Origin: Candidatus Zixiibacteriota bacterium
GTDB lineage: Bacteria > Zixibacteria > MSB-5A5 > SM23-73-2
Assembly: GCA_030615745.1 (NCBI GenBank)
Contig: JAUWYR010000006.1
Location: 11,014 to 75,013 of the forward strand
Length of the DNA stretch: 64,000 nt
Direction of reading: 5' to 3'
Shown in pieces: positions 14,579 to 55,906 of this stretch. The stretch's first letter is position 1, and each line of letters opens with the position of its first letter. The notes beneath the pieces are model-generated. The model ran no database searches. It was not told the DNA's origin and was given only the letters and a program-made list of their open reading frames with translations. The position numbers and the translations under genes are program-made.

Positions 14579-14617
14579 AACCGTTCTCTGAATTCCTACT
14601 GAAATCAAAATCTCTTG

Positions 14618-15763
14618 ATGCGTCCGCAAATGCCAAAAAAAAGCAAGGTTTTCATCACCAGATGTAAGGATTACCATTTAGACAATGTAAGAGAGACACT
14701 TAGGCTTTCCTTACAACATCTTGGCGGATTGCAAAGATTTGTAAAAAAAAATGACAGGGTCTTAATAAAGCCAAATCTTTTATCTTCAAGAGAGCCTGAA
14801 AAGGCAGTAACTACACATCCATCCCTGGTTTTTGCTGTTGTAGAAGAGGTTAAAAAAATTGGTGGGATTCCTTTTATCGGAGACAGCCCAGGAGGGACCG
14901 AGAAGGGTATTGAAAGGCTGTGGAGAAATACCGGGATGGCAGATGTCTCTGAAAAAACTGGTGCAGAGCTTCTGTCATTTGAGAAAGCTGGTGTTTATAA
15001 GAAAGAGGCTTTATCCGGCAAAACATATTTTATCTCCAGGCAAGCTATAGACTTTAATGTTATAATAAATCTTCCCAAGCTAAAGACACATACCCTAACA
15101 CTTTTTACCTGTGCGGTTAAGAACATGTTCGGGGTTATACCTGGATTCAGAAAAGGTGAGTATCATAAAGAGGCGCCAAAGCCAAAAGATTTCGCCGAAG
15201 TTATTGTGGATATCTTCTCTCTGGTTAAGCCGCAGATAACTATAGCAGATGCGATAGTATGTATGGCTGGAGATGGTCCCTCCTCTGGTGAACCTCAATA
15301 CTTAGGAGTTATTTTAGCTTCAGAGGACCCTGTGGCTTTGGATGCTGTAGCTGCTAAGATAATGGGGTTTAAGGATAATGAGATCGATACCACTAATATT
15401 GCAAAAGAAAGAGGATTAGGAGCTGGAGAACTTTCGGAGATTGAAATTATAGGTGAAAACTTACCCGATCTCTTTGGATTTGATATTAAACTTCCCTCAA
15501 ACAGATTTTTAAGACTAATCCCGAAATTCTTAGTTAAGCTTTTAGCTCCCTATATCTGGGTGAGACCTGCGATATTAGATGGCAATTGCACCAATTGTAA
15601 CATATGCGTAGAAAACTGTCCGGTTAAAACCATTCATCCAGGAGATCCAATACCGGTTTATGATTATTCGAATTGTATCAACTGTATGTGCTGTCATGAG
15701 CTTTGTCCACATCGGGCGATTTATTTAGAGAAATCTTGGTTGTCGAAGATGATAGGGAGGTAA
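14618..15763 (+). CDS. DUF362 protein with C-terminal bis-4Fe-4S ferredoxin
   Basis: About 381 residues from ATG 14618. Residues 1-300 are the DUF362 fold (RVLIKPNLLSS, INLPKLKTHTLTLFTCAVKN, GVIPGFRKGEYHKE, VALDAVAAKIMGF). The C-terminus holds two 4Fe-4S motifs: CTNCNICVENC and CINCMCCHELC. Function is unknown; the family is common in anaerobes and is presumed to do electron transfer. The last 30 codons are duplicated perfectly at 17533-17628, beyond the dockerin gene. The stop at 15761-15763 is inside that repeat. Confidence 0.9.
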   Translation: MRPQMPKKSKVFITRCKDYHLDNVRETLRLSLQHLGGLQRFVKKNDRVLIKPNLLSSREPEKAVTTHPSLVFAVVEEVKKIGGIPFIGDSPGGTEKGIERLWRNTGMADVSEKTGAELLSFEKAGVYKKEALSGKTYFISRQAIDFNVIINLPKLKTHTLTLFTCAVKNMFGVIPGFRKGEYHKEAPKPKDFAEVIVDIFSLVKPQITIADAIVCMAGDGPSSGEPQYLGVILASEDPVALDAVAAKIMGFKDNEIDTTNIAKERGLGAGELSEIEIIGENLPDLFGFDIKLPSNRFLRLIPKFLVKLLAPYIWVRPAILDGNCTNCNICVENCPVKTIHPGDPIPVYDYSNCINCMCCHELCPHRAIYLEKSWLSKMIGR

Positions 15764-15766
15764 AAA
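15671..15766 (+). repeat. 96-bp perfect direct repeat, left copy
   Basis: Bases 15671-15766 are identical to 17533-17628. This copy is the 3' end of the DUF362/ferredoxin gene, with second ferredoxin motif and stop. The two copies bracket a 1.77-kb segment with the GC-rich dockerin gene. Confidence 0.95.
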
Positions 15767-15773
15767 TTGAAAG

Positions 15774-15807
15774 GAAACCCCAGCTTCTCAGTAAGAACTG
15801 GGGTTTC
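15774..15807. terminator. Hairpin between convergent genes
   Basis: Arms GAAACCCCAG (15774-15783) and CTGGGGTTTC (15798-15807). It lies between the convergent DUF362 and dockerin genes, right after the left 96-bp repeat. T-runs are weak on both strands, so termination strength is uncertain. Confidence 0.55.
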
Positions 15808-15870
15808 ATGGAATTCTGCTCAATTGTCAATATCACGATGAGAAGCTTAGTCCCACCATTGCAGTTAATA

Positions 15871-17115
15871 TCAAATGCCTGACGAACAATCCGGAGCAGG
15901 GCCGCCCTTCAGAAGATAATTAGCCAAATAAATGACGTCTGCCAAGTTACAGGAGTCATCGTTGTTCACATCAGCGCAGGCTGAGAATGGACTTGGCGGA
16001 CATACTGGCTCTGGACCTCCTTTTAGCAGATAGTTGGCAAGGTATATGACATCTCCTAAGTTTATGCTTTGATCGCCGTTGACATCACCACAGATGAAAG
16101 GACAAGCGTCGCCAGTGCCGTCGCAGTCGGAGTCTTCTTGTAGCGGGTTGTAAGTGTAAGGGCAGTTGTCTGCCAGATCATGAATCCCGTCGCTGTCGTA
16201 GTCAGGTCCCTCCTCCTCTGGCGGAAGAACTCCGTGGGCAGCCAGCAGGGCCTGCTCGCGAGTCATACGCTTGTAATGCGTGTCCGCAGGGTTAATACAA
16301 TCGCAGGGTATCGGCCACACCCCGGGGAAGAAATTGCTGCTGGCAGCAACCGGCACTTCAGAAGTGAGGGGATTACAATCGTGATCCACCGAATCCCCGC
16401 CGGGCGAGGTGACTATACCAAAACCAGGATCAAAGTATGTCCAGCGTCCACAGAGCGTTTGGAAAGAAATCACCATTGGATCATAACCGAGGTCCAATAC
16501 CTGCACCTGATGTGGATCCCCCACCTTGGTGAAAATAAACCGCGGAGTTACAGGGAGGGTGGCGTCGAATGTGCCCCCGTCAGAACACTCATGGCGGATG
16601 GTCATCGAGCCAATATGCTGGGTGTCCACGCTCGACAGGCACACCTTTACGTCCCACAGTTCGGGGTCTTGGCCGCCATCCCAGGTCACCGTGATCGGGT
16701 TGATACTTTTCAAAGAGAGCGCTATGATTTCGATCGGAATCATGTCCGAGTCACCGCACGCTGGCAAAAACGCCGTGTCCAGCCGCTCGACGATCACGTC
16801 AGCCGGCCATATCTGGGGAATTGGATCCCCCTCTAAGGTAATGGGTTGGTCAAACGGATCCGACCCGGGGCCAAAAAAGTCTGCAGGTATCGGCATGACG
16901 GTGAAGTGGGAGTCGACAGTAGCACCACCCGAGGGTGTAGACCACAAGTCCACACCAGGAAGAACATTGTCGGCTGATGTGGGTAGGGTCGCGAAGACGC
17001 CAAACATCACAACTGTAACCACCAGCCCCACAACGTGCCTTAAACCAAAGTTCCTAACAGAAGATTTTTTGGAACGAGCAGAATTACTGAAACTATTTTT
17101 TCTTAAACTTCTCAT
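15871..17115 (-). CDS. Secreted protein with thrombospondin-3-like and dockerin repeats, GC-rich
   Basis: 414 residues. An N-terminal basic stretch and hydrophobic segment (about 25-48, ending TSADN) suggest export. The central region (50-300) is beta-rich with no family that I recognise. From about 300 come a calcium-binding TSP3-like stretch (DSDGIHDLADNCPYTYNP, DSDCDGTGDACPF) and then two dockerin-type repeats (GDVNGDQSINLGDVIYLANY and DVNNDDSCNLADVIYLANY). Base composition is clearly richer in G and C than neighbouring genes, and the gene sits between perfect 96-bp repeats, so recent gain or assembly joining is likely. The dockerin tail matches that of three other genes here. Confidence 0.85.
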   Translation of the reverse strand: MRSLRKNSFSNSARSKKSSVRNFGLRHVVGLVVTVVMFGVFATLPTSADNVLPGVDLWSTPSGGATVDSHFTVMPIPADFFGPGSDPFDQPITLEGDPIPQIWPADVIVERLDTAFLPACGDSDMIPIEIIALSLKSINPITVTWDGGQDPELWDVKVCLSSVDTQHIGSMTIRHECSDGGTFDATLPVTPRFIFTKVGDPHQVQVLDLGYDPMVISFQTLCGRWTYFDPGFGIVTSPGGDSVDHDCNPLTSEVPVAASSNFFPGVWPIPCDCINPADTHYKRMTREQALLAAHGVLPPEEEGPDYDSDGIHDLADNCPYTYNPLQEDSDCDGTGDACPFICGDVNGDQSINLGDVIYLANYLLKGGPEPVCPPSPFSACADVNNDDSCNLADVIYLANYLLKGGPAPDCSSGI

Positions 17116-17336
17116 GACTTACCTCCACTTTCCAGACCAGCTATTTGTTCTTAGTTCAGACAGCACCTTAGAACAATGGAAGTCAGTTTTTTGTGAATGT
17201 TGCTTGAAACAGATTATCTACATCCAATCAAATTAATATTCATAGGCATCCTCCTTCCTGATAAGACAGCTTGCAGGTCGGATATGATCGCAGACTTTTC
17301 CAACACTTTCTCTTTGTAACTTCTACTTATTTGTTA

Positions 17337-17365
17337 AATATAAGCCTTTTCTGCTATTTTGTCAA
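17337..17365 (-). promoter_or_regulatory. Sigma70-type promoter for the GC-rich dockerin gene
   Basis: On the minus strand, TTGACA (17360-17365), a 17-base spacer and TATATT (17337-17342). The match is near consensus. The leader to the coding start is about 220 bases and contains no ORF I would support. Confidence 0.65.
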
Positions 17366-17532
17366 GCGAAATCTGTGTTTATCACCTTATAGTTAAGAGA
17401 GGTATAGCTATATAGACCTCGAGTTTAGAGCGAGCTACTCATTTTTGAAGAGGATTTCAGTTCATCTTTTGATGCTTCGGGAATGGGAAGGACTCTTCGA
17501 GCTTCGCATAGGTATTTACCAACGGTAGCCCA

Positions 17533-17628
17533 AATTGTATCAACTGTATGTGCTGTCATGAGCTTTGTCCACATCGGGCGATTTATTTAGAGAAATCTTG
17601 GTTGTCGAAGATGATAGGGAGGTAAAAA
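17533..17628 (+). repeat. 96-bp perfect direct repeat, right copy
   Basis: Identical to 15671-15766. Here it is an isolated fragment of the DUF362/ferredoxin gene 3' end with no coding sequence upstream, so it is a gene remnant or an assembly junction. Confidence 0.95.
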
Positions 17629-17638
17629 GTAAAAATCC

Positions 17639-17672
17639 TGTTCTCTGTTGGTCTTAAGACCAACAGAGAACA
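17639..17672. repeat. 34-bp perfect palindrome
   Basis: A perfect inverted repeat centred on TTAA, arms GTTCTCTGTTGGTC and its complement. It lies 10 bases after the right 96-bp repeat. It could be a protein operator, a hairpin of a non-coding RNA or the end of a mobile element. No gene adjoins it. Confidence 0.85.
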
Positions 17673-17741
17673 ACGAGGACCAATTTATAATTTTTTTGAT
17701 GGCTCAAGCTCAGATCATAGAGCGCTCAGCCCTGACCAACG

Positions 17742-17803
17742 GTAACCCAGGTTGCCCCCAACCTGGGCAAAAAAAGACCCACCTTGAGGCAAGGTGGGTT
17801 TAC
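17742..17803. repeat. Y-shaped double-hairpin element
   Basis: Closing arms GTAA (17742-17745) and TTAC (17800-17803) enclose hairpins CCAGGTTG/CCAACCTGG and CCCACCTT/AAGGTGGG, separated by an A-rich linker. The region 17629-17931 has no gene. An approximate direct repeat of about 40 bases around TTTTTTGATGGC occurs near 17670-17708 and 17824-17862. Confidence 0.7.
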
Positions 17804-17931
17804 GATTAACTATAAAGTAGTGGACGAATTTAGAACTTTTTTGATGGCAGAAGACTCAGATTCTCCTCTGTGTGAAGATATTCAAAAGCTGATTGCTCAC
17901 ATTCAGATATAGCAAGCGGAGGGTAGTTTCA

Positions 17932-18420
17932 TCAGAATAAAACCCTCCAGACAAAAATACCAATCATTGTACAACCTAAGATAAACTTAATTAATCCACC
18001 GAACAACAGACCTAAAAAAGCCCCACTGCCTGCTTTCAAGGCTGGGATTCCCTTTTTGCCAGCTATTAACTCAAATAAAACAGCAAATAAAAAAGGTAGA
18101 ATAACAATTCCTACTAATCCGAAAAAAATCCCAATAATCAATCCGATCACCGCACCAATTGCTCCGGTTCCTCCTCCTCCCATTTTCTTTACTCCTAAAT
18201 AATTGGCTAAATAATCAATGATAAAACTAAATACAGTCAAACCAGCAAAAATAAATATTAAATTAACAGTAATTTTCTTAAATCCGGATAAAACTCCATA
18301 TAAAAGAGCCCCTCCAAAAATAAGAGGAACGCCAGGAATAATTGGTAGAAAGACACCTGTTAATCCAACTAACATTATTATTAGTATACCTATGAATATC
18401 AGGATTTCTGAAAAGCTCAT
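17932..18420 (-). CDS. DUF456 family membrane protein
   Basis: 162 residues, almost entirely hydrophobic, with glycine-rich helices: LVGLTGVFLPIIPGVPLIF at the N-terminus, then DYLANYLGVKKMGGGGTGA and a second repeat-like half GLIIGIFFGLVGIVILPFL. The proline and glycine pattern is that of DUF456, a small membrane family of unknown function found across bacteria. It stands alone between repeat-rich regions. The gene is intact and in the AT-rich native composition. Confidence 0.88.
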   Translation of the reverse strand: MSFSEILIFIGILIIMLVGLTGVFLPIIPGVPLIFGGALLYGVLSGFKKITVNLIFIFAGLTVFSFIIDYLANYLGVKKMGGGGTGAIGAVIGLIIGIFFGLVGIVILPFLFAVLFELIAGKKGIPALKAGSGAFLGLLFGGLIKFILGCTMIGIFVWRVLF

Positions 18421-18477
18421 TTAAGTTTCCTTTTAACAACTATTTAAAATGGTTTTAAAGGAAATGCAAGACCTACT

Positions 18478-18541
18478 TGATGCATCGGCAAAAGGATTTG
18501 CCGATGATCGAGCTTCGGTAATTCCTATTACCAAAGCATCA
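18478..18541. repeat. Y-shaped double-hairpin element
   Basis: Closing arms TGATGC (18478-18483) and GCATCA (18536-18541) enclose ATCGGCAAA/TTTGCCGAT and GGTAAT/ATTACC hairpins. The rest of 18421-18809 has no gene. It has another hairpin AATTCAATCC/GGATTGAGTT (about 18608-18631) and CGCCACAAT/ATTGTGGC (about 18711-18729). Confidence 0.7.
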
Positions 18542-18751
18542 TATAATTCAATTACATTTTTCCCGAAGCTAATTGGCATCCCGCAATTAGAGGGAAGCAT
18601 CATAAAATTCAATCCTGAAGGATTGAGTTACATTTTTTGAATTTTCGCCTATCGTAAAGATGTTCACACATAGATCACTTATTTGGAATGCAAAAGTTAT
18701 GATTTTGGACGCCACAATAAATTGTGGCACTCCAGAAATAAAAAAAATAAA

Positions 18752-22097: not shown

Positions 22098-23720
22098 TTA
22101 AGGTGCTGGTCCTGCGAGAAAGAGATATTTGACGATATAGATCACGTCAGCTAAGTTTATTTTTGAATTTGAATTAGCATCTCCCGACTCTTTGGGATAG
22201 GGAGGGGGTCCACTTTTTATAAGATATTTTGCTAAATATATAGCATCGAGTATATCTATAACCCCATCATGATTGGTGTCTCCTCTTTTGAAGATCAAGC
22301 CAAACTCGGTGTTGTTGGTATTGTAGTTGTCGTGATTCTGTTCACCCCATAAAATTAGATAAGGGTTGTAAGGGGTGTGCATATTTAAAAGATGAACATA
22401 ATAGACGGTGCCATCAGGACTTAGTGATGGTATGTCGGTGGACATAGCCAGATCAAGGGTGTCATCTAAGTTTACATCCGCTAAGGTAGGGGGGCTAGCA
22501 AACCCTTGAATTTCTTTAGGGTAGTCGGGCAATAAGTTGCCAAATCGGTCATAAGCATAATATCTTCCCATACCGTTGTAGAGCGCGTTGTCAGTCAGAA
22601 TAATTTCCACCCAGCCGTCATTGTTTATATCCGCAACAACAGGGTCGCGGAAATGGTGGTTCCATTCAAAAATAATGGGCCAGCCGGGCTGGTAGGTTCC
22701 ATCATATCTGAAAACGTGGATGTTGGGATAGGGTTCACCTGCATAATCGGTTGTATAATAGGTGCACCAGATTATCTCCTTATAACCGTCCTTATCGATA
22801 TCGCAAGCCACCGGGGAAGCAGTAGGCTCAACATCATAAAATATCGGAAATCCGGGCATCGGCTCCCCATTTGACCTCCAGACACCGAGCATCCCCCCCC
22901 AGTCAGGCCAATTGTCTGCGCTCTCCAGAACTTCGAGCTTTCCATCCAGGTCTAAATCGCTCAATACTAAATGAGTGATCGATCCAGCTCCCAGATGCCA
23001 ACCCTCAGGTCCCTCCACCGGAAAACCCGGTAGAGGAGTTCCGTCCGAGCTCCAGGCCCAAAGGTGGAAGCTTGATACTGCCACAATATCCAGATTTCCA
23101 TCTAAGTCCAGGTCACCTGTTGCTGCAGGTCCGGTAAGTATCTCATATTTTATCCCTATGGGGAGCTGTTTGGGCCAGCCAGAAAGTGGCTCACCATCAT
23201 CATCGATAACATATATGGATGAGTCATGGGCAGGAACAATCACAGTTTCCAATTTTCCGTCTTTATCCAGGTCCGATATTGCGGGGTCAAAGCAGGGGGT
23301 ATACTGAGTAACTATAGCAGGAAAACCATCGTGGATAGTTCCGTTCTGGTGGTAGACAAAGAGTTTGTAGATGTGAGTGGTGCGCTCTAACTCGAGTGAT
23401 ACCACATCATTCTGCCCGTCACCGTCAACGTCCCCTATGGCAGACCCGTAAGAAAAGATTCCATAAGGGTTGGAGAGCAGGGGCCACCCGGGTAAACGGG
23501 AGCTGTCATATTTCCACACGTAGATGCTGTCAAAATCAGAAGGGAATAATATCTCCAAATCCGGATTAGAATCCAGATTACTGGCTATAGGCCTGTTAGG
23601 ATGTCTGAACAGAGCTTCATCGTAAACCACCGTCTGAGGCCAGCCAGGGAATTCGGTCTGGGCATAAGAGAGGTTAAGCAGAAATAGGATAAAAATCAGA
23701 AATATTTTAAAAAATTTCAT
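22098..23720 (-). CDS. Secreted FG-GAP/VCBS-repeat protein with dockerin tail
   Basis: About 540 residues from the internal start MKFFKIFLIFILFLLNLSYA (23720), which gives a clean signal peptide cut near SYAQ; the frame opens at 23744. The body is a beta-propeller made of FG-GAP-like repeats with calcium loops: SDLDKDGKLETVIVPA, GDLDLDGNLDIVAVSS, SDLDLDGKLEVLESAD, CDIDKDGYKEIIWC and ADINNDGWVEIILTD. The C-terminus carries the dockerin pair (GDTNHDGVIDILDAIYLAKY, GDANSNSKINLADVIYIVKY). Such proteins are extracellular or surface adhesins or scaffolds. The gene ends inside a small AATAAAGC/GCTTTATT hairpin at 22076-22099. Confidence 0.9.
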   Translation of the reverse strand: MKFFKIFLIFILFLLNLSYAQTEFPGWPQTVVYDEALFRHPNRPIASNLDSNPDLEILFPSDFDSIYVWKYDSSRLPGWPLLSNPYGIFSYGSAIGDVDGDGQNDVVSLELERTTHIYKLFVYHQNGTIHDGFPAIVTQYTPCFDPAISDLDKDGKLETVIVPAHDSSIYVIDDDGEPLSGWPKQLPIGIKYEILTGPAATGDLDLDGNLDIVAVSSFHLWAWSSDGTPLPGFPVEGPEGWHLGAGSITHLVLSDLDLDGKLEVLESADNWPDWGGMLGVWRSNGEPMPGFPIFYDVEPTASPVACDIDKDGYKEIIWCTYYTTDYAGEPYPNIHVFRYDGTYQPGWPIIFEWNHHFRDPVVADINNDGWVEIILTDNALYNGMGRYYAYDRFGNLLPDYPKEIQGFASPPTLADVNLDDTLDLAMSTDIPSLSPDGTVYYVHLLNMHTPYNPYLILWGEQNHDNYNTNNTEFGLIFKRGDTNHDGVIDILDAIYLAKYLIKSGPPPYPKESGDANSNSKINLADVIYIVKYLFLAGPAP

Positions 23721-24725: not shown

Positions 24726-26942
24726 ATGAAGTGTCTTAAAAGGATTTTAATCTTAGGAGTTATCCTTGTTGTATCAGGATTTATAATTATCTGGGCTCAA
24801 TCTCAACCCAAAGAAGAGAAAAAGGTGGTAACAGATTTGACTCCCTCAGAACTTCATAAGCTATTAGGAGAGATGAAAGCCAGAAAACTTTTGAAGCAAA
24901 GGGAGGCGATGAAAAAGGTGGGATTGAAGGCACCGGCTAATCAGGATGATTACGATGCTTTATACTATGGCTTGAATTTGACTATCAATGATACAAATCA
25001 GACTATTTTTGGCTGGGTGAATATGGAAGCGGAAAGCAGAATCGATGGATTAACCTTAGTTTCGCTTGATTTAATCAATTCCTTAACTGTTGACTCGGTC
25101 AAGCTCGGCAGCACTTCCCTTTCCTTTGACCATATTAACAACTTAATCGACATTACACTGGATAAAGCATATAATACCGGTGAGAAGTTTGTGCTCTCAG
25201 TTTTTTATTATGGACATCCAGAACCAGGAGGATTTCTGGCTTTTACCTTCGAGACCTATAACGGATACCCAATGATCTCAAGCTTAAGCGAACCCTTTTT
25301 CGCCCGAAACTGGTGGCCCTGTAAGGATTTTCCACACGATAAGGCTGATTCAGCTGATATCAACATAACAGTAAGACCTGACCTTGTGGTCGCTTCCAAT
25401 GGGACATTGAGGGATACCCTCACCAATCCAGATGGAACCAAGACATTTAAGTGGCACGAATCTTATCCCATAACTACCTATCTCATATCAGTTGCAATTT
25501 ATCCCTATTCTATTTTTTCCCACTATTATCTTTATTCCCCTACTGACTCGATGGAAGTGAGATATTTCGTTTTCCCTGATTACCTGGGAACTGCTCAAGT
25601 CTATTATCAGATAACCGTCCCTGCAATAGAATATTATGCTGAAACTTTTGGAGAATATCCCTTTTTATCGGAAAAATATGGGATGGCACATTTTAAATGG
25701 GGTGGAGCAATGGAGCATCAGACCTGTACCACCATTAGGTGCTGGTATTATGGTTGGGCTATTATCGTGCATGAGCTGGCTCATCAGTGGTGGGGGGATC
25801 TGATAACCTGCAGGGACTGGCATCATATCTGGCTAAACGAGGGATTCGCTTCCTATTGTGAGCCACTATTTCGAGAACATACTTCAGGTCAATCCGCTTA
25901 TCACGATTATATGGAGGGTATGGATTATCCTTATGGCGGAACAATTTATGTCGTTGATACTACAGATGTTTATGAGATCTTCAGCCTCAGAGTCTATCAT
26001 AAGGGAGCCTGGGTTCTGCATATGCTCAGGCATGTAGTTGGAGATTCGACATTTTTCGATATTCTAAGAGCTTATTATTCTGATCCTCGTTATGCTCACG
26101 GAACAGCGGTTACCGAGGATTTTCAGGGTATTTGTGAAAATGTTTATGGATATGATCTAGACTGGTTTTTTCAGGAGTGGATTTATGGCGAGTATCGACC
26201 GAATTATCATTATTCCTGGATCTATGAGCCCTCGCCTGAAAGCTACGATGTGTATCTGCACATAGATCAAATACAGACCACTGATCCTGAGGTTTTTACT
26301 ATGCCTATTGATATAACTATAAAAGATACTACAAGTGTTGAAGAGACCACTCTGGTGGTTTTTAACAATTTACGTTTTCAGGATTTTAAATTAACTGTTG
26401 AGATTCTTCCTCAAAAATTGGAATTTGACAAGGATAACTGGATCTTAAAATATTCAACAAAGACTAGCTATGGATTAAATATTGTCACAACCTCTTTACC
26501 TGATGGAAAAACTTTTTGGACTTATTACGATACCTTAGAAGCAAAAGGAGGAACCCCTCCTTATGAGTGGGCAGTTATATCCGGTGATTTTCCGGATGGA
26601 TTGAGCTTAAGCTCTTCCACAGGAATAATCTCCGGTGCTCCCTTTGTAGCGGATACATTCGATTTCACTGTTCAGGTAGAGGATTTGAGTAGTCTTACCG
26701 ATACACAGGATTTCACTATAGTGGTTGAGTATGATACAACTGCGCAATGCGATTTAGTTTATGATGATAAGGTGAATTTATCAGATGTGGTCTTTTTAGC
26801 CAACTATCTTTTCAAATCAGGTCCTGCGCCAAATCCTTTGAAGTGCGGGGATGTGGACTGTGATGGTTCTACTGAGGTATCTGATGTTATTTACATCGCT
26901 AATTATCTTTTGAAAGGTGGACTGGATCCGTGCTGGTGGTAA
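24726..26942 (+). CDS. Secreted M1-family zinc aminopeptidase with Ig-like and dockerin domains
   Basis: 738 residues. A signal anchor (5-24), the N-terminal M1 beta-saddle (75-255), then the catalytic domain: GGAMEH (326-331, replacing the usual GAMEN exopeptidase motif), HELAH (349-353) and the third zinc ligand in NEGFASY (Glu372). A putative cadherin/Ig-like He_PIG module (about 585-670; GGTPPYEWAVISGDFPDGLS) and two dockerin repeats (DLVYDDKVNLSDVVFLANY, GDVDCDGSTEVSDVIYIANY) end the protein. M1 enzymes remove N-terminal residues from peptides, so with the C25 protease it could form an extracellular protein-degradation set (inference). It has its own promoter and terminator. Confidence 0.93.
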   Translation: MKCLKRILILGVILVVSGFIIIWAQSQPKEEKKVVTDLTPSELHKLLGEMKARKLLKQREAMKKVGLKAPANQDDYDALYYGLNLTINDTNQTIFGWVNMEAESRIDGLTLVSLDLINSLTVDSVKLGSTSLSFDHINNLIDITLDKAYNTGEKFVLSVFYYGHPEPGGFLAFTFETYNGYPMISSLSEPFFARNWWPCKDFPHDKADSADINITVRPDLVVASNGTLRDTLTNPDGTKTFKWHESYPITTYLISVAIYPYSIFSHYYLYSPTDSMEVRYFVFPDYLGTAQVYYQITVPAIEYYAETFGEYPFLSEKYGMAHFKWGGAMEHQTCTTIRCWYYGWAIIVHELAHQWWGDLITCRDWHHIWLNEGFASYCEPLFREHTSGQSAYHDYMEGMDYPYGGTIYVVDTTDVYEIFSLRVYHKGAWVLHMLRHVVGDSTFFDILRAYYSDPRYAHGTAVTEDFQGICENVYGYDLDWFFQEWIYGEYRPNYHYSWIYEPSPESYDVYLHIDQIQTTDPEVFTMPIDITIKDTTSVEETTLVVFNNLRFQDFKLTVEILPQKLEFDKDNWILKYSTKTSYGLNIVTTSLPDGKTFWTYYDTLEAKGGTPPYEWAVISGDFPDGLSLSSSTGIISGAPFVADTFDFTVQVEDLSSLTDTQDFTIVVEYDTTAQCDLVYDDKVNLSDVVFLANYLFKSGPAPNPLKCGDVDCDGSTEVSDVIYIANYLLKGGLDPCWW

Positions 26943-40350: not shown

Positions 40351-40409
40351 GTTGTTGCCGAATTTCTAATTCGGCAATACCTTGCTGTATTTAAAATGCA
40401 GCAACAACA
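40351..40409. repeat. Y-shaped double-hairpin element (GTTG/CAAC type)
   Basis: Closing arms GTTG/CAAC enclose TTGCCGAATT/AATTCGGCAA and TTGCTGTATTT/AAATGCAGCAA hairpins. Very similar to copies at 55466 and 55715, and to a single-hairpin half at 60626-60656. A GTCAGG/CCTGAC hairpin (about 40265-40284) and CGGAGCC/GGCTCCG (about 40300-40318) lie nearby. Confidence 0.85.
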
Positions 40410-55465: not shown

Positions 55466-55906
55466 GTTGTTGCCGAATTTGTAATTCGGCAATTCACTGC
55501 TGCATTTCAAATGCAGCAACAACACTTGGAGCAACTTCACAGTAGCGTCAGGAGTTTCCTCCTGACGTTTTTTTTTCTTTTGGTAGGTAACTCCCGATAG
55601 CACATTGAATATAGAATTATCGATTTTAGAAGATCGAGCTACTTGTTATGGCGGGGTACCCTTACCCCGCTCATATAGGTCAAGGGTGAGGGCACCCTGG
55701 ATAAACTTATCTTTGTTGTTGCCGAATTTATAATTCGGCAATTCCTTGCTGCATTAGAAATGCAGCAACAACACGGAGATCAATCTTCCTGTGGCGTCAG
55801 GAGTTTTTTCTGACGCTTTTTGTTCTTTTGGTAGGTAACTCCCGATAGCATATTAGGTAAAGAATTGTCGATTTTGGAAAATCGACCTACATGTTAGGGC
55901 GGGGTA
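55466..55906. repeat. Tandem 193-bp multi-hairpin module (two copies)
   Basis: Copy A is 55466-55658, copy B 55715-55906; about 80 percent identical by eye. Each has a GTTG/CAAC Y element (55466-55523; 55715-55772), a GTCAGGAG/CTGAC hairpin with a T-run (about 55546-55569; 55796-55822), GGTAGGTAACTCCCGATAGCA, an ATCGATTTT-type hairpin with CTAC and a GGCGGGGTA end. Copy B runs into the final codons and stop of mutM, so that mutM ends within the repeat. Confidence 0.85.

Follow-up and report, generated by a model that had tools for sequence, protein, structure and literature searches.

The 64,000-nucleotide stretch of Candidatus Zixiibacteriota DNA analysed here (the window) carries the 3′ end of a conserved operon twice, and the second, orphan copy is probably the scar of an additive integration at the end of that operon. 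Positions 15671 to 15766 and 17533 to 17628, both read on the plus strand, agree in 96/96 bases on sequence comparison, and the match breaks off at both ends; a wider alignment of 102 nt, which runs through an A-rich flank, is 98% identical. An exact match of 96 bases is far beyond what chance would produce. A whole-genome search (2.28 Mb in 74 contigs) recovered these two copies only. Furthermore, in a 456-kb sample of genome stretches, which included the window and served for the surveys of local repeats and GC ranks, the pair was the sole exact local repeat of at least 90 bp; the remaining ones were mostly dispersed intergenic hairpins, together with within-gene repeats of one large protein gene. 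The left copy is the native end of a 382-aa DUF362 and 4Fe-4S ferredoxin gene (14615 to 15763, plus strand; Pfam PF04015, E = 2.6e-58, and Fer4), the last gene of the operon, and comprises its codons 352 to 382, the stop and 3 bases past it. The right copy holds no gene, only an open frame of 37 aa. These results confirm the preliminary description in three respects, namely that the direct repeat is exact over 96 bp, that its left copy is the real DUF362/ferredoxin 3′ end and that its right copy is an orphan fragment.

Short repeats of other kinds were also seen. In contig C17 of G000 (L114), a 43-bp pair at 23373 to 23415 and 25071 to 25113 (98% identical, 1.7 kb apart) has one copy overlapping an ORF end and the other intergenic, and is possibly a second small gene-segment duplication. 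The window itself contains near-tandem intergenic repeats of about 97 to 115 bp at 55466 to 55906 (77 to 87% identical); a further, diverged copy stands at 40351.

The operon upstream of the repeat is conserved, and the DNA behind it is not. The genes before DUF362 presumably encode PhoH, an HD-domain membrane protein, YbeY and a CorC-type CBS protein, as named from their translations. The order CorC-DUF362 is maintained in relatives of the same order, and YbeY keeps its place too in several of them. The DNA past the DUF362 stop differs between lineages among these relatives; in three genomes of one genus (G002, G006 and G008), the first bases after the stop are common to all three. In a same-genus relative (G001), whose DUF362 gene is 82% identical, nucleotide similarity ends at most 12 bp past the stop and returns near 18605, ahead of a C25-peptidase dockerin gene. 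These borders delimit a variable interval (15776 to 18604) from the DUF362 end to the conserved 3′ flank of that dockerin gene. In the window, the interval spans 2.8 kb, with a dockerin unit first, then the orphan 96-bp copy and finally, beyond this scar, a unit with a 162-aa DUF456 gene (17932 to 18420, minus strand; PF04306, E = 1.3e-31). In G001, the interval holds an unrelated 408-aa gene, the DUF362 tail is present in single copy and DUF456 lies on a different contig. Thus, G001 presents a third arrangement, neither the empty site nor the donor. Within the bounds of a between-species comparison, the 3′ edge of the repeat (3 bases past the stop) agrees with the point where similarity between the relatives ends (at most 12 bases past it). 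A search of relatives for older or diverged scars of the DUF362 gene end, in which several of the stretches were short, found none.

The end of this operon also breaks the assembly in another relative, G003. There, contigs C1 and C58 (L018 and L019) end in or just past DUF362 and overlap by about 396 bp with 94% identity. What had looked like a second DUF362 tail in G003 proved to be these two overlapping contig ends, which are probably strain variants.

According to the explanation that we favour, an incoming fragment from a close relative would have carried the 3′ end of DUF362 and, behind it, a complete dockerin transcription unit, and the recipient chromosome would have had the DUF456 unit directly after DUF362. 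On one side, the common DUF362 sequence would have paired and undergone a normal crossover. On the other side (the joint 17532/17533), the end of the fragment would have been joined illegitimately 96 bp before the end of the homology, either directly or via trimming and recircularisation of the fragment before a single crossover. The product would have the order DUF362-R-(dockerin unit)-R-(DUF456 unit), where R is the repeat. Since the right end of the repeat falls on the border where chromosomes diverge, no special breakpoint is needed there, and one new joint suffices. The anatomy is consistent with this scheme, as the insert is flanked by direct copies of the target segment, one of which completes the DUF362 gene. 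The variation of the interval across relatives and the single tail copy in the sister genome also speak for additive integration. Against it, neither parental arrangement was seen, and the scheme would rest on a single genome. The donor, the crossover and the sequence of events are inferred. Either allele may have been the resident one, as a comparison of the flanks for the ancestral side of the scar gave no significant answer.

The position of the repeat edge also weighs on two explanations that use resident DNA. A short ectopic duplication, in which 96 bp of the DUF362 end were copied 1.8 kb downstream by template switching during repair or replication with the dockerin gene already present, is rather unlikely in our estimate. 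The orphan copy does lie among dispersed hairpin repeats, which are plausible sites of fork trouble, and the left-flank sequence TTGAAAGGA resembles TTGACAGGA after the stop in G001, a likeness that would make the dockerin side native although the test was not significant. However, it would then be a coincidence that the copied piece ends no more than 3 bases from the stop, which is also where conserved DNA gives way to variable DNA. A tandem duplication of 15671 to 17532, with the second dockerin copy then deleted so that a gene-end fragment remained, would produce the same first joint and would likewise suffice with resident DNA alone. The preliminary description had proposed a tandem duplication followed by replacement, which is formally possible but needs two events. 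Moreover, the deletion would have to begin within 3 bases of the gene end, and the DNA from the orphan copy to DUF456 showed no remnant of a second dockerin unit; this course is therefore distinctly improbable.

The DNA immediately left of the orphan copy contains dispersed repeats that occur elsewhere in the genome. Positions 17518 to 17532 (plus strand) are the cut-off start of a dispersed double-hairpin repeat, which ends at the new joint 17532/17533. A full copy of this element, with the pattern GGTA.CCCAGGTTGCCCCCAACCTGGG...CCCACCTTGAGGCAAGGTGGG, lies at 17730 to 17807, and further copies occur elsewhere in the genome (L118, 8250 to 8325; L105, 18983 to 19054; and other contigs); a loose pattern search for the element gave noise only. 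The joint reads ACCAACGGTAGCCCA on its left and AATTG on its right. The full copies read ..CCCAGGTTG and ..CCAAGTTG, in which GGTTG or AGTTG takes the place of the AATTG of the repeat; TTG is common to all. Judged from these other copies of the element, TTG may have guided the join, in which case the microhomology would amount to at most 3 to 4 bases.

Hairpins also appear to mark the ends of the transcription units on both sides of the scar. The convergent DUF362 and dockerin genes are separated by a hairpin at 15774 to 15808 (fold −21.6 kcal/mol, z −2.76), probably a shared terminator. A promoter-like site (17337 to 17365, minus strand; 11/12 consensus matches, a pattern match only) is located 5′ of the dockerin gene and inside the bracket. 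Terminator-like hairpins of dispersed families follow the DUF456 gene on its 3′ side (17638 to 17799, minus strand), with a 34-bp palindrome at 17639 to 17672 and a hairpin at 17777 to 17799. Given the promoter-like site and hairpin in the bracket and the terminator-like hairpins after DUF456, the scar appears to separate two complete transcription units, which, like the cut-off repeat at the joint, counts in favour of additive integration. The 34-bp palindrome is near-perfect with the core TGTTGGTCTTAAGACCAACA, and is dispersed between genes, with no fewer than 11 distinct copies among the genome stretches examined. Besides the window, it was seen in L066, L075, L082, L105, L116, L117, L118 and L122, and it may act as a terminator or represent a REP-like element.

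The combination of one homologous side with one illegitimate joint, possibly at a microhomology of a few bases, resembles the homology-facilitated illegitimate recombination known from Acinetobacter, Pseudomonas stutzeri and Streptococcus pneumoniae (PMC3240628). In that process, recipient DNA is usually deleted, whereas the present event would have added DNA and duplicated 96 bp. For this reason, the scheme has to assume the additive or recircularised form. Such a form has been described in E. coli, where conjugation of DNA with one homologous end gave gene-end duplication rather than deletion in 56/60 clones examined by PCR, and the duplications were put down to trimmed DNA that had recircularised and entered by a single crossover (PMC3240628). 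The 14 duplications sequenced in those lacZ experiments measured 109 to 950 bp (PMC3240628), compared with 96 bp here. In both cases, foreign DNA lies within a direct duplication of the target 3′ end. The E. coli system, in contrast, was a laboratory plasmid under selection, and ours would be a natural event read from one genome in which the parental forms are lacking. As ComEC is present in the genome, DNA uptake is possible, and with it natural transformation by this bacterium.

The preliminary description had also raised an assembly artefact, on the ground that 96 bp is close to a k-mer length. Such an artefact, a second copy created when contigs were joined at an overlap of k-mer length, would suit a genome that was assembled piecewise into 74 contigs, and 96 bp is within the range of common k values. 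Among 20 contig ends compared within this genome, however, four independent pairs of ends, one of them involving the window's own contig, showed exact terminal overlaps of 141 bp each. That all four overlaps are exactly 141 bp points to a last assembly k of about 141; k = 141 is a default of the MEGAHIT assembler. The repeat matches neither k nor k-1 and is 45 bp shorter than 141. With k larger than 96, an assembler can place the repeat twice in one contig only where the data contained both contexts, so we regard an artefact as very unlikely, and the earlier suspicion is disfavoured.

The bracketed DNA offers little to support integration by a dedicated element. Its dockerin gene (15871 to 17115, minus strand) encodes a secreted-type protein of 414 aa with a body that was assigned no family in the Pfam search, a TSP3 repeat (PF02412) and a dockerin (PF00404). 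It is the only recognisable gene of the 1,766-bp insert, where two antisense ORFs had no NCBIfam family match; no integrase gene was found in 15767 to 17532. Site-specific integration at the DUF362 gene end, restoring the gene and leaving a copy of the attachment site at the far side, would fit the anatomy, with an insertion at a gene 3′ end, the gene kept whole and an orphan fragment opposite. The poor gene content argues against it; moreover, no other instance of the site occurs in the genome, and the relatives searched showed no scar at their DUF362 orthologue. We give this explanation hardly any weight. A transposon with a target-site duplication is not supported, since there is no inverted repeat pair at the ends of the bracket and the dockerin gene is the only one recognised in the insert. 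The proposal of the preliminary description that an insertion had duplicated its target stands in amended form: the bracket yielded nothing transposon-like, and what was duplicated is best taken for the homologous segment that closes the operon.

The dockerin gene was also described as GC-rich, and this is borne out, as its GC content of 53.1% ranks second among 294 ORFs of at least 150 aa in the 456-kb sample (mean 38.9%, sd 4.1%). The body (about 16102 to 17040) reaches 56.3%, with 62.6% at third positions, the dockerin tail has 47.4%, and the 417 bp from the gene to the right copy have 38.6%. Eight further genomes of the class, members of two other families, gave strong matches to the body (best 52% identical), against 0/10 other genomes of the same order; no solved structure resembling it was found. 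The tail is 79% identical to a tail elsewhere in the same genome. The claim that the bracket as a whole is GC-rich foreign DNA is not supported, for part of the bracket is low-GC intergenic DNA containing dispersed repeats that are native to this genome. A foreign island bounded by the repeat was rejected likewise, because the GC-rich body falls short of the repeat and the tail resembles the genome's own. The GC-rich body is probably a separate, older acquisition that the repeat does not delimit. In GC content, the sample's most extreme outlier is a 748-aa open frame at the end of contig C48 of G000 (1 to 2244; L116), with 57% GC and 71% at third positions.

Scars of this type are already described in cultured bacteria. 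In the T6SS immunity-gene arrays of Vibrio cholerae, orphan 3′ ends have been proposed to stem from successive additions of this type (PMC5361080). There, as here, a conserved upstream anchor is followed by a new module, and older material and gene ends are displaced downstream. Those arrays, however, carry toxin and immunity genes and a series of scars, whereas the present locus has neither gene type and a single scar. Short variable segments between backbone genes are common in well-sampled species, and direct repeats flank 10 to 18% of them, mostly shorter than 30 bp (PMC2884548). Our interval is alike in that differing DNA occupies one place between backbone genes with direct-repeat flanks; it differs in that the repeat has 96 bp and is a gene end.

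Since the two copies of the repeat are identical, the dockerin unit is predicted to be losable in one recombination step. A wider idea, which we consider quite doubtful, is that the operon end acts as a standing landing pad, where dockerin and other units are repeatedly added and looped out by recombination through the DUF362 end; if true, it would mean a reversible change of gene content within the population. Our findings suggest that orphan gene ends beside conserved operons are usable for finding recent additions. The scar would be a fresh footprint of how a dockerin-rich bacterium stacks accessory genes behind a conserved operon.
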